Assembly: GCF_001514065.1 (NCBI RefSeq)
Contig: NZ_KQ948432.1
Span: 411,845 to 475,844, forward strand
Source: Streptomyces antibioticus
GTDB lineage: Bacteria > Actinomycetota > Actinomycetes > Streptomycetales > Streptomycetaceae
Direction: 5' to 3'
Length of the DNA: 64,000 nucleotides
The notes under the pieces are model-generated. The model did no database searches, was not told the DNA's origin, and saw only the letters and a list, made by a program, of their open reading frames with translations. Shown piece after piece: positions 29,342 through 38,264 of the stretch (positions are counted from its first letter, which is position 1; every line of letters begins with the position of its first letter). The translations under genes and the position numbers were made by a program.

Positions 29342-31222
29342 ATGGACCTGGCACAGCTCGTGACCGACCCGCGCCCCTTCGCCTTGCTGCGCCGCCGCAC
29401 GCCGGGCCATGACGACAACACCGTCGAGGTGTTCCTCGGCCCGGTCTCCTCGTACGACCGCCTCGCCGACCTCCCCGACGAGGGCCTCGCCCTGGTCCCC
29501 TTCCGGCAGATCCGCGAGCGCGGCTTCGACGTGCGGGACGACGGGACACCGCTGACGGTGCTGGTCCCGGAGGAGACGCACACGCTGGCCCTGCCGGACG
29601 CCCTGGCGCAGCTCCCCGCCCATGACGTGCGCGTCGAGGACGGCGGCTTCGACGTCGCCGACGAGGAGTACGGCGAGATCGTCGGCCGGGTGCTGCGGGA
29701 GGAGATCGGGCGGGGCGAGGGCGCGAACTTCGTGATCCGGCGGACGTACGAGGGCGGGATCCCGGGGTTCTCACGGAGGGACGCCCTTGCCCTCTTCCGG
29801 CGGCTCCTCGTGGGCGAGCGCGGCGCCTACTGGACCTTCGTCGTCCACACCGGCGACCGCACGCTCGTCGGCGCCAGCCCCGAGGTGCATGTGCGGATGT
29901 CCGGCGGCACGGTCGTGATGAACCCGATCAGCGGGACGTACCGCTATCCCGCCGAGGGCCCCACCCCCGAGCATCTGCTCGACTTCCTCGCCGACGGCAA
30001 GGAGATCGAGGAGCTGTCGATGGTCGTCGACGAGGAGCTCAAGATGATGTGCACGGTCGGCGACATGGGCGGAGTGGTGATCGGGCCCCGCCTGAAGGAG
30101 ATGGCCCACCTCGCGCACACTGAGTACGAGCTGCGCGGGAAGTCCTCGCTGGACGTCCGGGAGGTGCTCAAGGAGACCATGTTCGCGGCCACCGTCACCG
30201 GCTCCCCGGTGCAGAACGCCTGCCGGGTCATCGAGCGGCACGAGGTCGGCGGGCGGGGCTACTACGCGGGCGCGCTGGCCCTGCTCGGCCGGGACTCGGG
30301 GGGCGCCCAGACCCTCGACTCCCCCATCCTGATCCGCACCGCCGACATCGCCGCCGACGGCCGCCTCCGGGTCCCGGTCGGCGCCACCCTGGTCCGCGGT
30401 TCGGACCCGGCGAGCGAGGTCGCGGAGACGCACGCGAAGGCGGCGGGCGTGCTGGCTGCGCTGGGTGTACGCCCCTCACGACCGCGTGCGGAGGAGGCGC
30501 GCCCGAGGCTGTCCGACGACCCCCGGGTGCGGGCCGCGCTCGACGGGCGCCGGTCGTCCCTCGCACCGTTCTGGCTGCGGATGCAGGAGCGCTCGGAGGA
30601 ACTGGAGGGCCACGCGCTCGTCGTCGACGGCGAGGACACCTTCACGGCGATGCTCGGGCACGTCCTGCGCTCCAGTGGGCTGGCGGTGACCGTACGGCGC
30701 TACGACGAGCCCGGTCTGCGCGAGGCGGTCCTCGCCCACGAGGGCCCGGTCGTCCTGGGCCCGGGCCCCGGCGACCCCTCCGACCTGACCGACCCGAAGA
30801 TGCGCTTCCTGCGCGACCTCACCGCCCACGTCATCGGCAGGCACCGGCACGGCGTGCTCGGCGTCTGCCTCGGCCACGAGCTGATCGCGGCGGAGCTGGG
30901 CCTGGAGATCGTACGCAAGGAGGTGCCGTACCAGGGCGCGCAGACGACGGTCGACCTGTTCGGGCGGGAGGAGACCGTCGGCTTCTACAACAGCTTCGTG
31001 GCGCGCTGCGACGACGAGACGGCGGCCGAGCTGGCCGCGCACGAGGTCGAGGTGAGCCGGAGCGGGGCGTACGAGGTGCACGCGCTGCGCGGACCCGGCT
31101 TCGCCGGTGTGCAGTTCCACCCGGAGTCGGTGCTGACGCTGAACGGGGCCGCGATCGTACGGGAGTTGACGGCTCAGCTGCGCGGCACGAGCACGTTCTC
31201 CGAGCGGCGGCCGGCCTTGTAG
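29342..31222 (+). CDS. trpEG: fused anthranilate synthase (TrpE-TrpG)
   Basis: A 626-residue fusion. Residues 1-400 are the chorismate-binding TrpE part (FVIRRTYEGGIPGF, GASPEVHVRMSGG, NPISGTYRYP, EIEELSMVVDEELKMM, FAATVTGSPVQNACRVIERHE shown as landmarks, GRGYYAGALALLGRD). Residues about 425-620 are the glutamine amidotransferase TrpG part, with GPGPGDPSD, the nucleophile Cys in GVCLGHELIA and the HPESVLT His/Glu. The enzyme makes anthranilate from chorismate. The single-chain arrangement is known from Streptomyces primary and secondary metabolism. Trp attenuation points to the tryptophan pathway. Its 3' end overlaps the dehydrogenase gene on the other strand by 49 bases. Confidence 0.95.
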   Translation: MDLAQLVTDPRPFALLRRRTPGHDDNTVEVFLGPVSSYDRLADLPDEGLALVPFRQIRERGFDVRDDGTPLTVLVPEETHTLALPDALAQLPAHDVRVEDGGFDVADEEYGEIVGRVLREEIGRGEGANFVIRRTYEGGIPGFSRRDALALFRRLLVGERGAYWTFVVHTGDRTLVGASPEVHVRMSGGTVVMNPISGTYRYPAEGPTPEHLLDFLADGKEIEELSMVVDEELKMMCTVGDMGGVVIGPRLKEMAHLAHTEYELRGKSSLDVREVLKETMFAATVTGSPVQNACRVIERHEVGGRGYYAGALALLGRDSGGAQTLDSPILIRTADIAADGRLRVPVGATLVRGSDPASEVAETHAKAAGVLAALGVRPSRPRAEEARPRLSDDPRVRAALDGRRSSLAPFWLRMQERSEELEGHALVVDGEDTFTAMLGHVLRSSGLAVTVRRYDEPGLREAVLAHEGPVVLGPGPGDPSDLTDPKMRFLRDLTAHVIGRHRHGVLGVCLGHELIAAELGLEIVRKEVPYQGAQTTVDLFGREETVGFYNSFVARCDDETAAELAAHEVEVSRSGAYEVHALRGPGFAGVQFHPESVLTLNGAAIVRELTAQLRGTSTFSERRPAL

Positions 31223-32169
31223 TCGAGGACGTTGCGCACCGTGGCGTCGACGATCTGGCCGACGGCGTCCTCGGTGTAGTACGCCTGGTGGGACGTGACC
31301 AGGACGTTCGGGAAGGTGACCAGGCGGGCCAGGGTGTCGTCCTCGATGGCCTCCAGGGACTTGTCGAGGAAGAACAGGCCCGCCTCCGCCTCGTACACGT
31401 CGAGGCCGACGCCGGTGAAGCGGCCCGCGCGCAGCTCGGTGACGAGGGCCGCGGTGTCGATCAGGCCGCCGCGGCTGGAGTTCACCAGGATCGCGTCGTC
31501 CCGCATCGCCCGCAGGGCGGCGGCGTCGATGAGGCGCTGGGTCTCCGGCATCAGCGGGACGTGCAGGGTGACCAGGTCGGACTCGGCGAGGAGCTGCTCC
31601 TTGGGGACGTACTTCATGCCGAGTTCCAGGCAGGCGGGGTTCTCGGCGACGTCCCAGCCGAGCAGCTTCATGCCGAAGCCGTGGGCGATCCGGGTGAAGG
31701 CCTCGCCGATCTTGCCGGTGCCGAGGACGCCCGCGGTGCGGCCGTGCAGGTCGCGGCCCATCAGGCCGTCCAGGCGGAAGTCGAAGTCGCGGGTGCGGGT
31801 GGAGGCGCGGACGATCCGCCGGTTGACGGCCATGGCGAGGGTCCAGGCGAACTCGGCGACCGAGTACGGCGAGTAGTACGAGACGCGGGCGATCGTCATG
31901 CCGAGCCGCTCGGCGACCTTGAGGTCGATGTTGTTGAAGCCGGTGGAGCGCTGGGCGATCATCCGGGTGCCGCCGGCCGCCAGGACCTCCAGGACGCGCG
32001 GGCCGAGCTCGGCGTTGACGCTGGTGGAGACGACCTCGTAGCCGGCCGCGATGGGGGCGGTGTCCTCGTTGAGGAAGACGTCCAGGCAGCGGACCTCGTG
32101 GTGGCCCTGGAAGGCGCGCTCGATCAGGGGCTTCTCGTCGGCCTGGACACCGAAGGCGAGGATCTCCAC
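31174..32169 (-). CDS. D-lactate dehydrogenase-type 2-hydroxyacid dehydrogenase
   Basis: A 331-residue NAD-dependent D-2-hydroxyacid dehydrogenase, the length of fermentative D-lactate dehydrogenases. Landmarks: QRSTGFNNIDLKVAERLG, RVSYYSPYSVAEFAW, the NAD motif GVLGTGKIGEAFTRIA, HVPLMPETQRLID, VNSSRGGLIDTAAL with catalytic Arg, and VTSHQAYYTEDAV with the catalytic His. It converts pyruvate to D-lactate or acts on a related 2-oxoacid. GTG 32169 has GGAGG upstream. It lies 47 bases after the CHAT-operon membrane protein gene on the same strand and may receive read-through from that operon. Confidence 0.9.
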   Translation of the reverse strand: MEILAFGVQADEKPLIERAFQGHHEVRCLDVFLNEDTAPIAAGYEVVSTSVNAELGPRVLEVLAAGGTRMIAQRSTGFNNIDLKVAERLGMTIARVSYYSPYSVAEFAWTLAMAVNRRIVRASTRTRDFDFRLDGLMGRDLHGRTAGVLGTGKIGEAFTRIAHGFGMKLLGWDVAENPACLELGMKYVPKEQLLAESDLVTLHVPLMPETQRLIDAAALRAMRDDAILVNSSRGGLIDTAALVTELRAGRFTGVGLDVYEAEAGLFFLDKSLEAIEDDTLARLVTFPNVLVTSHQAYYTEDAVGQIVDATVRNVLDYKAGRRSENVLVPRS

Positions 32170-32216
32170 GCGGCCCTCCGGGGGTGCGCCGGAATTGTCT
32201 GGTCCTGGCGAATATC

Positions 32217-33068
32217 TCACAGACCCCTGCGGAGCCGCTCCGTGAGCGCGCGCCCCTGTTGCGGGGACGGGCGGGGCTCGGCGAGGCGGGTGTGGAGGCG
32301 GTCGAGGTGCAGATCGACGGTGGCCTCGACGAGCTCGGCGTAGACCTCGGCGGTGAGGGTGGCGCGGCGCCAGGAGACGAACGCCGTGACCAGCGCGATC
32401 AGCGCCGCGGGCCACCAGTACACGGCGAGCGGCAGATACAGCGCCGCCCAGCCGCCGAGCGTGAACGCCGCGTCGAGGCGGGTGCGGGCCTCGGTGAGGG
32501 TGTCGCGGGTCGGGGTGGGGAGCAGGAGCCACAGGCGGGGCCAGACGGTGGCCAGGTCGATGCCGTACTCCTGGCGGAGGCGGACGGCGGGGGCGCGGAG
32601 GCGGTCGCCGAGGCGGGTGGGGTGTTCGGGCGGGATGAGGGAGAGGGCGTTGCGACGGGCGGCCCGCTCCGGGTCGCGGTGCTCGCGGTAGGCGGCGTCC
32701 TCGGCCGCCCAGGTGTCGCCCCGTCGGCGGGTCCGGCGGGCCGACAGGCCGGCGAAGGGGCGCGGCCAAGGGCCGCACAGGACGCGTTCGACAGGGCCCG
32801 CCAGCGCCTGGGCGACGGCTCCGAGGGTGGCCGACACCGGTACGGCCGCCAGGACGAGCAGGATCGCCCGTACCGCGAGGGCGTTCTGGTCGTTGCCCTC
32901 GGTGAGCGTGGTGAAGCCGTCCCACAGCTCATGCCCGTCGCGCCAGTCGCGCTGCCCCAGCCTGAACGCCGCCGCGGCGACCAGGACATAGGCCAGCCCC
33001 GGCAGGACCAGCAGGGTGAACCAGCGCTCGGCCAGCTTCCGGCCCAGCTCGGCGAGGAACCCGGTCAC
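32217..33068 (-). CDS. membrane protein of the CHAT operon
   Basis: A 283-residue protein that I cannot assign to a named family. Two hydrophobic segments lie near residues 18-37 and 65-90, then a long Arg-rich cytoplasmic region, and a closing hydrophobic pair near 205-230 (LGGWAALYLPLAVYWWPAALIALVTA region). This gives four probable membrane helices. The tail is charged and helical. GTG 33068 lies 10 bases after the stop of the small Cys/His gene, with GAGGG before it. Its membrane location and tight linkage to a protease make it a candidate target, pore or anchor of the system. No catalytic motif is seen. Confidence 0.7.
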   Translation of the reverse strand: MTGFLAELGRKLAERWFTLLVLPGLAYVLVAAAAFRLGQRDWRDGHELWDGFTTLTEGNDQNALAVRAILLVLAAVPVSATLGAVAQALAGPVERVLCGPWPRPFAGLSARRTRRRGDTWAAEDAAYREHRDPERAARRNALSLIPPEHPTRLGDRLRAPAVRLRQEYGIDLATVWPRLWLLLPTPTRDTLTEARTRLDAAFTLGGWAALYLPLAVYWWPAALIALVTAFVSWRRATLTAEVYAELVEATVDLHLDRLHTRLAEPRPSPQQGRALTERLRRGL

Positions 33069-33078
33069 CGGTCGGCCC

Positions 33079-33453
33079 TCAGGCGTCCGGCACGAAGGTC
33101 AGGACGCGTTCGTGGACGAGGCACTCGGGTGGGCCGTCTCCGGCGTACCGCTGCTCGACGCGGTGGCAGGCGCCCACGGGGCACAGGTAGGTGCCGGGGA
33201 CGGGCGGGCCGTGGGTGGCGACCGGGGGTGGCGCACTCCGGCCGCGCAGCGGCTCTGTGACGCTGACGGGGAGGGCGGCGATGACTTCGTCCACGGCCGC
33301 CCCCTCACGCAACCGTCGTACCGCCTGTTCCAGGGCCGCGCGCCGGGGTCCGCTGAAGAGCCGCAAGGTCGCCAACTCCCGGCAGAATTCGGCGTGCAGA
33401 TCATTGTCGGCTGGTTCCACGGAACTGATCGTAAAGCCGCTCACGCCTCTCAC
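33079..33453 (-). CDS. small Cys/His-rich protein of the CHAT operon
   Basis: A 124-residue protein. The N-terminal half is helical (LHAEFCRELATLRLFSGP, then RRAALEQAVRRLREGAAVDE). A Pro-rich linker follows, then a likely zinc-binding tip: YLCPVGACHRVEQRY, then PPECLVHERVL, giving a C-x4-C ... C-x2-H pattern. Its start codon overlaps the CHAT stop as GTGA (33450-33453), so it should be translationally coupled to the protease; GTG 33444 is an alternative. In actinobacterial conflict operons similar small zinc-tip proteins accompany CHAT proteases, so it may be a sensor, adaptor or substrate. Confidence 0.68.
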   Translation of the reverse strand: MRGVSGFTISSVEPADNDLHAEFCRELATLRLFSGPRRAALEQAVRRLREGAAVDEVIAALPVSVTEPLRGRSAPPPVATHGPPVPGTYLCPVGACHRVEQRYAGDGPPECLVHERVLTFVPDA

Positions 33454-36400
33454 ACCCCCGTATGCACATGCGCCGCCCAGCTCAACGGCCGTTCCGGCCA
33501 CCGCTTCCGCACCTGTCGTACGGCGTCCCACAGCGCCCGCGCTGCGGGCGGCGCCCCCGGCCCTGCGGCGGCGAGCCGGCCGTAGACCTGTGCGGCGATC
33601 TCCGCGGACGAGTCGTCGTCCACCCGCCACAGCGTGCCGATCACCTGGGAGAACCCGGCGAGTTGGAGCGAGCCCGCGAGATGCAGCGCCTCGTCGGGCA
33701 GCCGGGCGCCGCCGACGGCGGTCTCGCAGGCCGAGAGGTAGGCGAACTCGGCGGCGGGCAGGTGGAGTCGGGTGACGTCGAGGACGGACAGGGCCCCGTC
33801 AGGGAGCAACAGCCGTCCCTGCGAGGGCTGTTCGGGGTCCTGGACGCCATGGCAGGCGAAGTGCACCCAGGGGTGGGCGTGCAGCGCGTCCCGTACGGCA
33901 CCGGCTCGCACCTCCTGGCCCCGCCACAACGCGCCGCCGATCGACCGGTGGGCCAGCTCGGCCTCGCGCAGGGCGCCCGGCAGCGGGGCCTGTCCGTCCA
34001 GTTCCGGTACGGCGACGATCAGCGGCTCCCGGCCACCCGCGGGCGCCGCCCTCCCGCGCGCCCGCAGCAGGGCCGCGAGGCTCGGGGTGTACGAGGAGAC
34101 GACCCGGTCGGGAACGGCGCCCGCGGCGTGCAGGGGGAGGAAAGTGAGCGGACCGGAGGGGCACCACCACAGGCGGGGCGGCTCCGCGCCGGGCGGGGGT
34201 GGGCCGGTGATGCCGAGGGTGTCGAGGACCGGCTCGGCGACGGTGGTCCACAGCCACTCCAGGAGATCGGCGACGAACTGTTCGGCGAAGGCGCGGGCCA
34301 GTCCGGAGCGTCCGGCCGCGGCGACCGCCTGGAACAGCAACTCGCTGCGCTCTCTGACCTCTTGGTGGGTGAGGCCGGGCAGCGGGCAGACCTTGAGACC
34401 GCCGCGGTCGAGGAGCAGGGCGTGGCCGGTGCCTTCCTGGCCGACGGTGAGGACGACGACGGGGCCGTCGGCGCCCGCCGACATCAGACGCCCTGCCCCG
34501 GGCGGCCGCAGGAAGTCCTCGAAGCCGTCCCGGGCCCGGATCTCGTCGAGGGTCTCCTGCCACAGGCGGGCCAGCCGGTGGCGGCGGTCGGCGCCGGATG
34601 CGGAGAGGTCGTCGGTGGCCCGTTCCAGTTCCCCGCGCAACTCGGTGAAGCGCCGGCCCAGTTCGGGGTGCGTGGCGGTCAGTTCATCGGCGTCGGTGCG
34701 CAGTTCCAGGGCCTGTGCGGCGAGCACACCGCGGCCGGCCTCCAGCAGCTCCAGGGCGTCGTACGGTCTGTCGGCGGCCAGCGCGACCTTCGCGGCGAAC
34801 GACCCCAACTCGGTGTTGCTGAGGCTCTGTTCGTGGTCGGAGCGGTCGCCGCCGCGCCACACCACCAGGGGCAGCATGTCCACCGCGTCCCGCACCGCGG
34901 CCAGCGCCCGCTCCGCGTCCCCGACCGCGTGCGCCACGCCCGCCAGCCGCAGCGCGGCGGCGGCGCGGACGCCGGGAGGCACCGCCGGGTCGGCGGCGAG
35001 TTCGGTGTTGACGGCGAGGGCCTGGTCGCGGATCTCGTCGTAGCCGCCGTCCGCCTCGGAGATGTCCCGCAGCACCCACGACAGGGCACCGAGCACGCCG
35101 CCGCGCAGCGGATGCCCGCAGGGCATGAGGCGCACGCTCTTGAGGGCGGCCGCGAGCGCGATGTCGAGATCCTCGCGGTCCCCGGCACGGCGGTGGCGCT
35201 GGCGCAGCGCGTGCGCCAGGTTGCCGTACAGGGCGGCGCGGCGCAGCGGGTCGGCGGGCGGGTTCGCGAGGGACCGCTCGAAGTGGTCGACGGCGGCCTG
35301 GGCGACCTCGGCGTCGCTGCCGGGCACGCTGACGCGGGCGAGCAGCAGGCTGCCCTGCGCGGACTCCAGATGGTGCCGCGCGTGATGGCCGGGCCGCAGG
35401 CCGGCGAGGGCGCGCCGCACCAGTTTCCGGGCCCGTTCCAGTTCGGCCCGGTCCCTGGTCCGGCGGGCGTACTCGATCATCAGAGCGGTCACATTGCCGA
35501 GGACGACCGGGGTCTCCGCCTCGAACTTCGGCAGGCCCTCGACCATGTCCTCGGCCACGTCGATGGCCTCGCGCAGGGCGGCGAGGTGCCCGGTGCGGGT
35601 GTGCCGCTCAGTGAGGACCATGATCAGGCTGCCGCGCAGGGTCATCAGGTCCTCGGTGTCCACGTGCGCGCCGGACAGGGTGTCGAAGGCCTGGCGGCAG
35701 CAGTCCACGGCCTCGTCGAGCACGGCCAGGTCGTAGCCGAACCGGTAGCGGTGCACCAGCACCGTGGCGAGCAGCGAGAGGGCGTGGGCCCGGTCCATGG
35801 CGGAGCGGGAGAGGGCCAGGGCCCGGCGGGCGGCCTCCTCGGCGGGGCCGAAGTCGGGATCGGTCCCGCCCTCGGTGCCGGCCAGCCGCAGCGCGCTCAG
35901 GCCGCGCAGGGCCGAGGGGGCGTCGGCGTGCGGGCCTTCCGGCGCGACGAGCGGGCTCACGACGGCCAGGGCCCGGACGATCACCTCCGCGTCGCCGGTC
36001 TCCCGGAACTCCTGCACCGCGGCGGTGCCGTACGAGCTCACGGCCTCGTCCGAGGCGTCCGGCCCCGTCAGGCCCTCCCCCATGAGGTCCAGCGCGCGGC
36101 GCCGGTCGGCGGTGTCGCCGCGCATCTGGTAGCGGTACTGGAGATGCCGGCCGAGATCTGCGGCGTAGCGCCGCGGCTGGGCGGCGTACAGCTTCTCGTA
36201 GACCTCGACGGCCTCCTGGAGGACGTCCAGGTCCCGGCGGCGGGCGAAACGCTGGGCGAGCAGGCCCGCGAAGATCGGCTCGTTCCCCTCCCGGCGGTCG
36301 GCGAAGAGCGGGTGCCGGAAGATCTCGCGCTGCAACTCCAGTCCTTCGTCGAGGAGTTCGACGTCCTTCAGCTCGTGGACGGTGGCGGTGACGAAGGCGC

Positions 36401-37145
36401 CCACGGCCGTCATCGCGTACGCGAGCCACTGCGGGCTCTCGGGGTCGAGTCCGGCGAGTTCGGTCCGCACGAGGGCGGGCACGCCCGCCATACCGGAGGC
36501 GTCCCGCAGGCGCGCGCAGCGCTCGGACAGCAGCCGGGCGAGTCCGACGGCCCATTCGGCGGCCGGGTCGCGCGGCGTCCGCAGGTCGTAGGCCGCGCGA
36601 GCGTGGGCGATCGCCGTGTCCTGGTCGCCGGGATCCCCGGATGCCTTGAACCGCAGCTCCGCGATGCCCGAGACGAACATGAGCAGCCGGGGCCGGCGCG
36701 GGTCGTCGGCGGCCGAGCCGTTCAGACAGCGGGTGCCACAGAGCAGGGCGGCGTCCACGCACCAGCGGCGCAGATGGTGCGGAGTGCCCTCGTCCTGAGC
36801 GAGCTGGAAGAAGCGGACGGCCATCTGAGCCGCCGAGTTCACGTCGACGACGCCGAGAGGTGCCGTCGGGTCGATCAGCGGGCGCAGTGCGGCGGGCGTG
36901 GCCACGGGGTTCGTGCGGTGCCAGCGGGCCATGGCGAGGATGATCACCGCCGTCTCGGGCGGGTTCTCGTCGCCGCGGGACGCACGCCCGACGGCGAGCA
37001 ACAGGGCCGCGGCGCCTCGCAGTTGGTCAGCACTCGACGGGGGTAACGGCACGCCGTCACGGAACGCGGGCCAGACGGCGGCCAGTTCGTCGCCGTGCCG
37101 CTCGAGAAGTGCCCGCAGCTCCCGCCCGCTCCACCAGCCGACCAT
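33450..37145 (-). CDS. TPR-CHAT caspase-like protease
   Basis: A 1231-residue protein. Residues about 40-880 are Ala/Leu/Arg-rich helical hairpins consistent with TPR-like repeats (for example AVEVYEKLYAAQPRRYAADL; AALREAIDVAEDMVEGL; ALRQRHRRAGDREDLDIALA). The last 280 residues are a CHAT domain: LWWCPSGPLTFLPLHAAG, SYTPSLAALL, catalytic His near 1099 in VHFACHG and catalytic Cys near 1140 in AYLSACETAVG, then GFSQVIGTLWRVDD. Both active-site residues are intact. CHAT proteases act in conflict and regulated cell-death systems by cutting partner proteins. ATG 37145 has GGGGGAGA upstream and lies 19 bases after a long palindrome. The downstream genes are coupled. Confidence 0.9.
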   Translation of the reverse strand: MVGWWSGRELRALLERHGDELAAVWPAFRDGVPLPPSSADQLRGAAALLLAVGRASRGDENPPETAVIILAMARWHRTNPVATPAALRPLIDPTAPLGVVDVNSAAQMAVRFFQLAQDEGTPHHLRRWCVDAALLCGTRCLNGSAADDPRRPRLLMFVSGIAELRFKASGDPGDQDTAIAHARAAYDLRTPRDPAAEWAVGLARLLSERCARLRDASGMAGVPALVRTELAGLDPESPQWLAYAMTAVGAFVTATVHELKDVELLDEGLELQREIFRHPLFADRREGNEPIFAGLLAQRFARRRDLDVLQEAVEVYEKLYAAQPRRYAADLGRHLQYRYQMRGDTADRRRALDLMGEGLTGPDASDEAVSSYGTAAVQEFRETGDAEVIVRALAVVSPLVAPEGPHADAPSALRGLSALRLAGTEGGTDPDFGPAEEAARRALALSRSAMDRAHALSLLATVLVHRYRFGYDLAVLDEAVDCCRQAFDTLSGAHVDTEDLMTLRGSLIMVLTERHTRTGHLAALREAIDVAEDMVEGLPKFEAETPVVLGNVTALMIEYARRTRDRAELERARKLVRRALAGLRPGHHARHHLESAQGSLLLARVSVPGSDAEVAQAAVDHFERSLANPPADPLRRAALYGNLAHALRQRHRRAGDREDLDIALAAALKSVRLMPCGHPLRGGVLGALSWVLRDISEADGGYDEIRDQALAVNTELAADPAVPPGVRAAAALRLAGVAHAVGDAERALAAVRDAVDMLPLVVWRGGDRSDHEQSLSNTELGSFAAKVALAADRPYDALELLEAGRGVLAAQALELRTDADELTATHPELGRRFTELRGELERATDDLSASGADRRHRLARLWQETLDEIRARDGFEDFLRPPGAGRLMSAGADGPVVVLTVGQEGTGHALLLDRGGLKVCPLPGLTHQEVRERSELLFQAVAAAGRSGLARAFAEQFVADLLEWLWTTVAEPVLDTLGITGPPPPGAEPPRLWWCPSGPLTFLPLHAAGAVPDRVVSSYTPSLAALLRARGRAAPAGGREPLIVAVPELDGQAPLPGALREAELAHRSIGGALWRGQEVRAGAVRDALHAHPWVHFACHGVQDPEQPSQGRLLLPDGALSVLDVTRLHLPAAEFAYLSACETAVGGARLPDEALHLAGSLQLAGFSQVIGTLWRVDDDSSAEIAAQVYGRLAAAGPGAPPAARALWDAVRQVRKRWPERPLSWAAHVHTGV

Positions 37146-37164
37146 CCGGTCTCCCCCGTGACAT

Positions 37165-37201
37165 CCTCGACGCCGTCACGGTTACCGTGACGGCGTCGAG
37201 G
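37165..37201 (-). terminator. pfkA terminator / 37-bp palindrome upstream of the CHAT gene
   Basis: An 18-base arm beginning CCTCGACGCCGTC (37165-37182) is perfectly matched by 37184-37201 around a single T. As RNA it forms a very strong hairpin 34 bases past the pfkA stop on the minus strand. It ends only 19 bases before the CHAT start, so it might also act as an operator or a leader structure for that gene. Confidence 0.8.
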
Positions 37202-37235
37202 CCCAGAGGTCAATTCGCCTTGCGGGAAGAGCCGT

Positions 37236-38264
37236 TCAGCCGAAGAACACCCCGACCTCCGCGTACAGCTCCGGGTCGACCGTCTTCAGCTTGGCCGTGG
37301 CGTCCGAGATCGGTACGCGCACGATGTCGGTGCCGCGCAGCGCGACCATCTTGCCGAAGTCGCCGTCCCGTACGGCGTCGATGGCGTGCAGGCCGAAGCG
37401 GGTGGCGAGCCAGCGGTCGAAGGCGCTGGGGGTGCCGCCGCGCTGGATGTGCCCGAGCACGGTCGTCCGGGCCTCCTTGCCGGTCCGCTTCTCGATCTCC
37501 TTGCCGAGCCATTCGCCGACCCCGGACAGCCGGACGTGCCCGAAGGAGTCCAGCGACCCGTCCTTGAGGACCACGTCGCCGTCCTTCGGCATGGCCCCCT
37601 CGGCGACGACGACGATCGGGGCGTACGAGGCCTTGAAGCGGGAGGTGATCCAGGCGCACACCTGGTCGAGGTCGAAGCGCTGCTCGGGGATGAGGATGAC
37701 GTTGGCGCCGCCGGCGAGGCCGGAGTGCAGGGCGATCCAGCCGGCGTGCCGGCCCATCACCTCGCAGACCAGGACCCGCATATGGGACTCGGCGGTGGTG
37801 TGCAGCCGGTCGATGGCCTCGGTGGCGATGCCGACCGCGGTGTCGAAGCCGAAGGTGTAGTCGGTGGCGGACAGGTCGTTGTCGATGGTCTTCGGTACGC
37901 CGACGACGGAGACGCCGTACTCGTCGGTGAGCCGCGCTGCCACACCCAGGGTGTCCTCGCCGCCGATCGCGATCAGCGCGTCGACCTCCAGCTTGGCGAG
38001 GTTCTCCTTGATGCGGCGGATGCCGTTCTCCTGCTTCAGGGGGTTCGTCCGCGAGGAGCCGAGGATGGTGCCGCCGCGGGGCAGGATGCCGCGCACCGCG
38101 GGGATGTCGAGGCGGACGGTGTCGCCCTCCAAGGGCCCGCGCCAGCCGTCCCGGAAGCCGACGAAGTCATAGCCGTACTCCTGCACGCCCTTGCGGACGA
38201 TGCCCCGGATGACGGCGTTGAGCCCGGGGCAGTCGCCGCCTCCGGTCAGTACTCCGACCCGCAT
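37236..38264 (-). CDS. pfkA: 6-phosphofructokinase
   Basis: A 342-residue group III PfkA. Landmarks: MRVGVLTGGGDCPGLNAVIR, VPKTIDNDLSATDYTFGFDTAVG region (IDND catalytic loop), CEVMGRHAGWIA, and LGHIQRGGTPSAFDRWLATR. The phosphoryl-donor loop reads GGEDTLG; an Asp at this place occurs in pyrophosphate-dependent enzymes, yet Streptomyces and Amycolatopsis homologues with the same loop include both ATP- and PPi-dependent members, so the donor cannot be fixed. ATG 38264 has AGGGA upstream. It commits glucose-derived hexose phosphate to glycolysis, matching glkA nearby. Confidence 0.94.
   Translation of the reverse strand: MRVGVLTGGGDCPGLNAVIRGIVRKGVQEYGYDFVGFRDGWRGPLEGDTVRLDIPAVRGILPRGGTILGSSRTNPLKQENGIRRIKENLAKLEVDALIAIGGEDTLGVAARLTDEYGVSVVGVPKTIDNDLSATDYTFGFDTAVGIATEAIDRLHTTAESHMRVLVCEVMGRHAGWIALHSGLAGGANVILIPEQRFDLDQVCAWITSRFKASYAPIVVVAEGAMPKDGDVVLKDGSLDSFGHVRLSGVGEWLGKEIEKRTGKEARTTVLGHIQRGGTPSAFDRWLATRFGLHAIDAVRDGDFGKMVALRGTDIVRVPISDATAKLKTVDPELYAEVGVFFG

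Follow-up and report, generated by a model that had tools for sequence, protein, structure and literature searches.

A mobile three-gene TPR-CHAT protease and membrane-protein module in Streptomyces with a possible role in conflict

Described caspase-like systems and the Streptomyces antibioticus locus

In bacterial gasdermin operons, a protease acts on a membrane-active partner. Another arrangement is the ternary conflict system CATRA, reportedly described by Burroughs and Aravind in 2020. A passage of one later article names caspase-dependent CATRA (PMC8195603), and passages of another present the EACC1-caspase system, prevalent in actinobacteria, as two genes encoding a single-TM EACC1 protein and a protein with the caspase at its N-terminus (PMC7159879). 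In Craspase, a trigger is coupled to a TPR-CHAT protease, whose cleavage target is the partner protein Csx30 (PMC11106740).

We analysed a 64,000-nucleotide stretch of the Streptomyces antibioticus contig NZ_KQ948432.1 (hereafter the window), in which a preliminary description had proposed one tight operon for a TPR-CHAT protease, a small Cys/His protein and a four-helix membrane protein (here CHAT, SMALL and MEM). The three open reading frames, their order, the GTGA overlap and the 10-base gap were all reproduced, and the features of the locus are as follows.

31174..32169, minus strand: flanking ldh-like gene, which, from its sequence, we take to encode a D-2-hydroxyacid dehydrogenase
32170..32216, minus strand: ldh-side boundary of the insertion, as judged against six empty sites
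32217..33068, minus strand: MEM, a 283-aa membrane protein with three hydrophobic regions, a positively charged loop (95-200) and conserved GDR and WPRLW motifs
33069-33078, minus strand: 10-base gap between SMALL and MEM
33079..33453, minus strand: SMALL, 124 aa, with a C-terminal CPxxxC...PxC motif and conserved C24, C91, C96 and C111
33450..33453, minus strand: GTGA overlap of the CHAT stop and the SMALL start
33450..37145, minus strand: TPR-CHAT caspase-like protease, 1231 aa, with an arm at about residues 1-900, the CHAT domain at 961-1230, and His1099 and Cys1140
37146..37235, minus strand: insertion boundary on the pfkA side, containing a perfect inverted repeat
37236..38264, minus strand: flanking pfkA, presumably encoding a 6-phosphofructokinase-like enzyme, as named from its sequence

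The CHAT, SMALL and MEM genes occupy 4,929 of the about 5,070 bases between pfkA and ldh, and no mobility gene was found inside this insertion. The inverted repeat (37165-37201, with 18-base arms around a 1-base centre) lies after the pfkA stop and before the CHAT start and might serve as a terminator for pfkA or as an operator; similar but imperfect inverted repeats are visible at the same site in two other loci, L115 and L120.

A conserved and mobile trio

The preliminary description had taken ldh and pfkA to be neighbours in S. coelicolor and proposed that the locus is an insertion between them, and a comparison of this interval across Streptomyces bears out both points. Among the matches listed for the two flank proteins (199 genomes each), we hand-picked pairs with both genes on one contig in 83 Streptomyces genomes; the gap measures 64-379 bp in 74 of them, compared with 5,069 bp here. 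In the other 8 of the 83 the gap is at least 388 kb and the ldh match is only 64-73% identical, so that it may be a different gene, while 39 of 115 ldh matches had no pfkA partner listed on the same contig and are uninformative. Before ldh, four of the six empty sites carry GGGCCGTATATTCGGCCC and two a variant, and a remnant of GGGCCGTATATTCGGCCC is recognisable in the occupied Streptomyces justiciae locus. The occupied arrangement recurs with both flanks in L115 (S. justiciae), L117 and L120, with ldh alone in L116, L126 and L127, where the contig ends upstream, and with pfkA alone in L118, whose fetched stretch holds no ldh match above 55% identity; the insertion is therefore common to a group of species.

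MEM-type matches, distant ones included, occur in 65 of 199 Streptomyces genomes, and at the family level in 43 of 150 genomes from 8 of 17 genera. Phylum-wide, a MEM search that scored only 7 candidates per genome matched 3 of 296 genomes, below the expectation from the named collection, and a SMALL search matched 6 of 100, two of them Streptomyces and the other four giving marginal matches near E 1e-4. Partners were counted by six-frame profile searches because gene calling missed some genes. Of 36 neighbourhoods, taken mostly from the top of the Streptomyces MEM match list and overlapping with the 79 loci described below, 29 contained SMALL and 27 a CHAT domain by the profiles built here; in two further neighbourhoods (L040 and L045), the contig end falls within a CHAT-like frame.

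The 79 named loci were found with MEM, represent the best 80 of 150 matching stretches and lean to close relatives; they come from Streptomyces, Nonomuraea, Streptosporangium, Actinomadura, Amycolatopsis, Nocardia, Kribbella, Micromonospora and other genera of several actinomycete orders. In 76 of them SMALL immediately precedes MEM on the same strand, the remaining three being cut by a contig edge, and the spacing between profile ends is 60 nt or less in 75 of these 76. A CHAT gene was detected within the 7-kb flanks of MEM in 69 of the 79, arranged divergently upstream in 43, downstream on the same strand in 17, upstream on the same strand in 6 and convergently in 3. Among the ten loci lacking it, L141, L142, L165 and L172 have full flanks and six have a flank cut by the contig end. 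Streptomyces genomes hold few CHAT domains (46 matches in 19 genomes, about 163 Mb, or about one per 3.5 Mb), and one would thus fall within 7 kb on either side of MEM by chance in about 0.4% of cases, compared with the 69 of 79 observed; the linkage is therefore far beyond chance at this density, which is taken from Streptomyces only, some other actinomycetes carrying more CHAT genes, up to 16 in one genome. The distance matrices of CHAT, SMALL and MEM also agree (r 0.70-0.80, with 0 of 2000 permutations as high) over 77 loci, left from 85 after redundancy removal, with 75 used for the arm comparison. The trio is a real conserved unit, and the co-occurrence across genomes on which the operon proposal depended is borne out by these counts.

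Several loci depart from this layout. One locus (entered as L046, L112 and L172) is an apparent remnant with SMALL split in two frames and no CHAT in the fetched flanks, and another (L047 and L114) appears to be a remnant with TPR fragments, but no CHAT domain, beside SMALL and MEM. L110 and L111 contain two CHAT genes, each beside a similar 222-residue protein, in a different CHAT pairing; the 222-residue protein of L110 has no Pfam match.

The module is mobile, because copies lie on plasmids, the flanks differ and the loci span several actinomycete orders. The flanking genes vary from locus to locus, and MEM matches were found on nine plasmid records, with 11 records, partly the same, for a second query. 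On the four plasmids inspected, CHAT lies near MEM in all four and SMALL is matched in three; the fourth, from Rhodococcus opacus, carries a 132-residue gene at the SMALL position that does not match the SMALL profile. Among viruses, no match to the module was obtained in 50,697 phage records or in an IMG/VR scan. PADLOC matches around the module showed no clear excess when 100 neighbour proteins were set against 51 other window genes, a comparison that is weak either way, the neighbours being drawn from 178 genes of 22 of the 79 loci and the control being a single region. The mad8 and mad3 models each matched 4 of the 100 neighbours and are absent among the control families listed (best 25), and PD-T4-6 models appear in both sets, where the family lists give the best 25 of 44 and the best 25 of 36.

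The three proteins, their relatives and rates of change

The CHAT domain at residues 961-1230 matches Pfam PF12770 (E 4.7e-42), the sole family above cut-off among the three proteins. In a sequence search of solved structures, His1099 and Cys1140 align on the CHG and ACE motifs of solved Csx29-type TPR-CHAT chains, in which we take these residues to be the catalytic pair. All 90 unique near-full-length CHAT domains keep the pair, a count from which 6 of 96 domains were removed as duplicates and partial domains left out, and the assignment of the two catalytic residues in the preliminary description is thus confirmed. As a member of the CHAT peptidase family PF12770 with both His and Cys present, the intact-looking protein is predicted to be a competent protease. 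Its N-terminal arm gives only a sub-threshold TPR match (TPR-S, E 0.51), yet among 17 proteins of the family scanned, TPR_10 was found in 9 and TPR-S in 6; the arm is therefore probably of the TPR type, as had been proposed, on the strength of its relatives.

SMALL conserves four Cys residues (C24 in 91, C91 in 96, C96 in 95 and C111 in 96 of 96 sequences), whereas position 114 is His in just 29 of the 96, so that the earlier label of a Cys/His protein holds for its Cys and not for its His. A four-Cys metal site is a reasonable guess from this pattern. Against Pfam, 15 members gave a best E of 0.02 with no family recurring, and the best match among solved structures (E 0.023) was taken as chance. 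The SMALL match is broken across two frames in L046/L172 (one contig) and in L040 with MEM still open, and because of these split matches the reading of SMALL as an obligate or simple antitoxin is weakened.

For MEM, the averaged hydropathy of the family shows three hydrophobic regions (19-residue window centres 21-31, 68-85 and 207-225) instead of the four helices first described, the third being weaker and perhaps a hairpin. Residues 95-200 bear a net charge of about +7, and W16, P23, R116, G154, D155, W176, W207, W219, P220 and E248 are conserved in at least 99 of 101 sequences. Eighteen members gave nothing above the Pfam cut-off (best E 0.015), and the best match among solved structures (E 0.63) was again attributed to chance. 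At E up to 1, PADLOC-DB 2.0.0 returned 0 families for the CHAT, SMALL and MEM proteins, and NCBIfam (searched with the three window proteins and ten others), like Pfam for the partners and their distant relatives, gave no more than weak or sub-threshold matches for the partners. The HMM check thus places neither partner in a housekeeping family, an assignment that would have spoken against the preliminary description, and SMALL and MEM appear to represent two uncatalogued protein families.

Distant MEM proteins carrying an LPTxLGN motif are related to MEM, as judged by a profile comparison (probability 99.7%, E 2e-25). They occur with CHAT and a small protein that has just the C-terminal Cys motif in common with SMALL in L075-L077, L194 and L195, beside CHAT with no small gene between in L107 and L196, and with a 90-residue Cys-containing protein in L201. 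CHAT is absent from the fetched flanks of L050, L089, L202, L086/L203 (one locus) and L198-L200, and in L050 the distant MEM has a Cys-motif small protein.

The distant MEM-like proteins of L202 (about 6.5-7.5 kb) and L086/L203 have neither a CHAT nor a SMALL match nearby, and the genes near them are presumably those of succinate dehydrogenase subunits. A small protein encoded upstream of the distant MEM in L198 (L198:5344-5838) matches EACC1 at a sub-threshold level (E 0.0017), which may point to a connection with EACC1 systems.

We estimated dN/dS between the window copy and four pfkA-adjacent copies, of which L115, L117 and L120 have both flanks and L118 has one, also scanning in 100-codon windows; because the window copy takes part in every comparison, the four are not independent. 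Residues 1-900 of the protease gave 0.53-0.74 versus 0.26-0.35 for residues 901-1231, with disjoint 95% intervals in four of four pairs. Within the protein, residues 401-600 reached 0.85-1.10, with intervals including 1, and residues 1101-1200 gave 0.10-0.25. The values were 0.23-0.36 for MEM, 0.27-0.38 for SMALL and 0.12-0.29 for pfkA and ldh; in the comparisons with L115 and L120, two of the four, the intervals of SMALL and the arm overlap. No interval lies wholly above 1 across the compared regions. From these estimates, the N-terminal arm is taken as a probable fast-changing recognition part on a more conserved machine, in a pattern that falls short of proving positive selection, and the contrast between the arm and the rest fits a chain of sensor, protease and membrane protein.

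Proposed function and relation to described systems

We propose, with a probability of roughly 0.45, that the trio is a mobile three-component conflict module, in which a sensing TPR-CHAT protease works with a SMALL-MEM membrane pair and MEM disturbs the membrane. Our confidence is held at this level because no clear defence-island signal was seen. The TPR arm would recognise a sign of invasion or damage and thereby switch on the CHAT cysteine protease; SMALL and MEM, whose genes are linked, would be co-produced as a pair at the membrane, possibly in a physical complex. The active CHAT protease would cut SMALL or a cytosolic part of MEM, and MEM would then disturb the membrane, thereby causing the hyphal compartment to die or cease growing before the invader spreads. 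The cleavage, the membrane damage and the role in defence are all steps that we infer. Several observations count against this model: no conserved cleavage site was noticed in the module partners in an unsystematic look, some distant MEM relatives lack CHAT in the fetched flanks (for example L050, L089, L198 and L202), and the module is absent from the viruses searched and shows no PADLOC excess in its surroundings. A bolder version, a non-gasdermin execution system of actinomycetes in which the arm senses the invader and CHAT cleaves SMALL or MEM to release a new membrane executioner carried on a mobile cassette, seems doubtful to us. If the proposed conflict module is real, a common and compact caspase-plus-membrane system with two uncatalogued families would join the bacterial conflict repertoire, and whether cell death is driven by TPR-CHAT proteases outside CRISPR could be tested directly on it.

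The order of events might also be reversed, with MEM and SMALL as the membrane sensor or anchor, CHAT as an effector that, after recruitment, cuts several host proteins, and the TPR arm docking or choosing the targets. MEM and SMALL indeed travel together with rate estimates below that of the N-terminal arm, SMALL-MEM pairs occur without CHAT in the searched flanks (L113, L141 and L165), and distant MEM proteins are accompanied by small proteins with only the C-terminal Cys motif in common, as a membrane platform might be. However, it is the TPR arm, the part expected to carry recognition, and not MEM that changes fastest, and we regard this order as unlikely.

Quite improbable, in our estimation, is a proteolytic system for stress or envelope signalling that serves the physiology of hyphal growth and has no part in conflict. 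The patchy presence in Streptomyces (65/199), the carriage on plasmids and arm rates up to about 1.1 all speak against it, whereas the lack of a clear defence-island signal and the ordinary-looking chromosomal neighbourhoods of some members of the MEM superfamily (L198, L202 and L203) would suit it.

A further reading takes the module as a divergent form of CATRA. Both consist of CHAT, a small protein and a third component, and the CHAT tree bears on this reading. One branch with support of 100/99 mixes the CHAT domains of CATASP-bearing loci with those of the module; its 43 rows comprise 35 module, 5 CATRA-group, 1 distant-MEM and 2 other rows, the last being CHAT genes without a nearby MEM match. 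All five CATRA-group rows fall inside this branch and 8 of the 9 distant-MEM rows outside it, in a tree whose module rows are the window and 34 loci drawn at random from the other 76 of the module, whose rows in some cases had over-long envelopes before column trimming, and in which three long branches were flagged, some of them possibly falsely joined. The L071 row represents a CHAT about 10 kb from CATASP, and the incomplete CHAT adjoining CATRA in that locus is absent. A CHAT clade exclusive to the module, for which the tree would need 8 label changes, was rejected.

The control loci L071-L074 carry CATASP, with CATRA-N/C in L071, L072 and L073. In contrast, Pfam scans detected no CATASP (PF20271) among 15 SMALL members, no CATRA-N or CATRA-C (PF20269, PF20270) among 18 MEM members, and none of these families in the CHAT, SMALL and MEM proteins of the window; a profile comparison of SMALL with CATASP gave a probability of 0.5%, with only 5 CATASP sequences, and of 19 Streptomyces genomes 0 yielded a CATASP match. 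We therefore rejected the module as a member of the CATRA system, and its being a divergent one is very improbable. That the three genes are chance neighbours without shared function has negligible probability, being refuted in effect by their recurrence and congruent distances.

As a separate observation on CATASP, its gene in L071 (L071:13353-15057) adjoins a protein with ThsA macro and BTAD domains, and in L074 it adjoins an NB-ARC/TPR protein; CATASP is therefore not tied to CATRA proteins alone.

Among the matches listed in open-licence PubMed Central, supplements being outside that scope, we found no earlier account of the trio. As far as the passages on the EACC1 system go, it shares with the module a caspase-superfamily protease and a membrane component in actinobacteria, but it has two genes and an N-terminal caspase, whereas the module has three genes, a C-terminal CHAT domain and a MEM protein with three hydrophobic regions. 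The EACC1 domain (PF19953) is not listed for the three window proteins or for the SMALL and MEM members, and together with the differences in gene number and protease position this led us to reject the module as an EACC1 system. The module protease has the TPR-CHAT architecture of Csx29 in Craspase, with matching motifs, but its 1231 residues compare with 670-822 aa in the chains matched. It was rejected as a Csx29 system, since it scores 33.1 bits against the cut-off of 300 for the NCBIfam model NF041237; by gene content, neither Cas7-11 (gRAMP) nor any further operon gene lies between pfkA and ldh. With gasdermin operons, the module would share the idea of a protease working on a membrane-active partner, although MEM contains hydrophobic regions of its own and the 18 members scanned have no gasdermin family listed.

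The closest relation is to CATRA, with a CHAT protease on the same branch and a compact locus that holds a small and a third protein; CATRA has CATASP and CATRA-N/C, where the module has a four-Cys protein and a membrane protein instead. The preliminary description had proposed an undescribed system with different partners, and the partners do differ, but the kind of system is not wholly new because its CHAT domain shares a clade with CATRA-type loci. We read the module as a sister of CATRA, in which a sensing caspase-like protease would act on or with a membrane pair, and the occurrence of one CHAT branch in both CATRA-type loci and the trio points to partner exchange around a shared protease.
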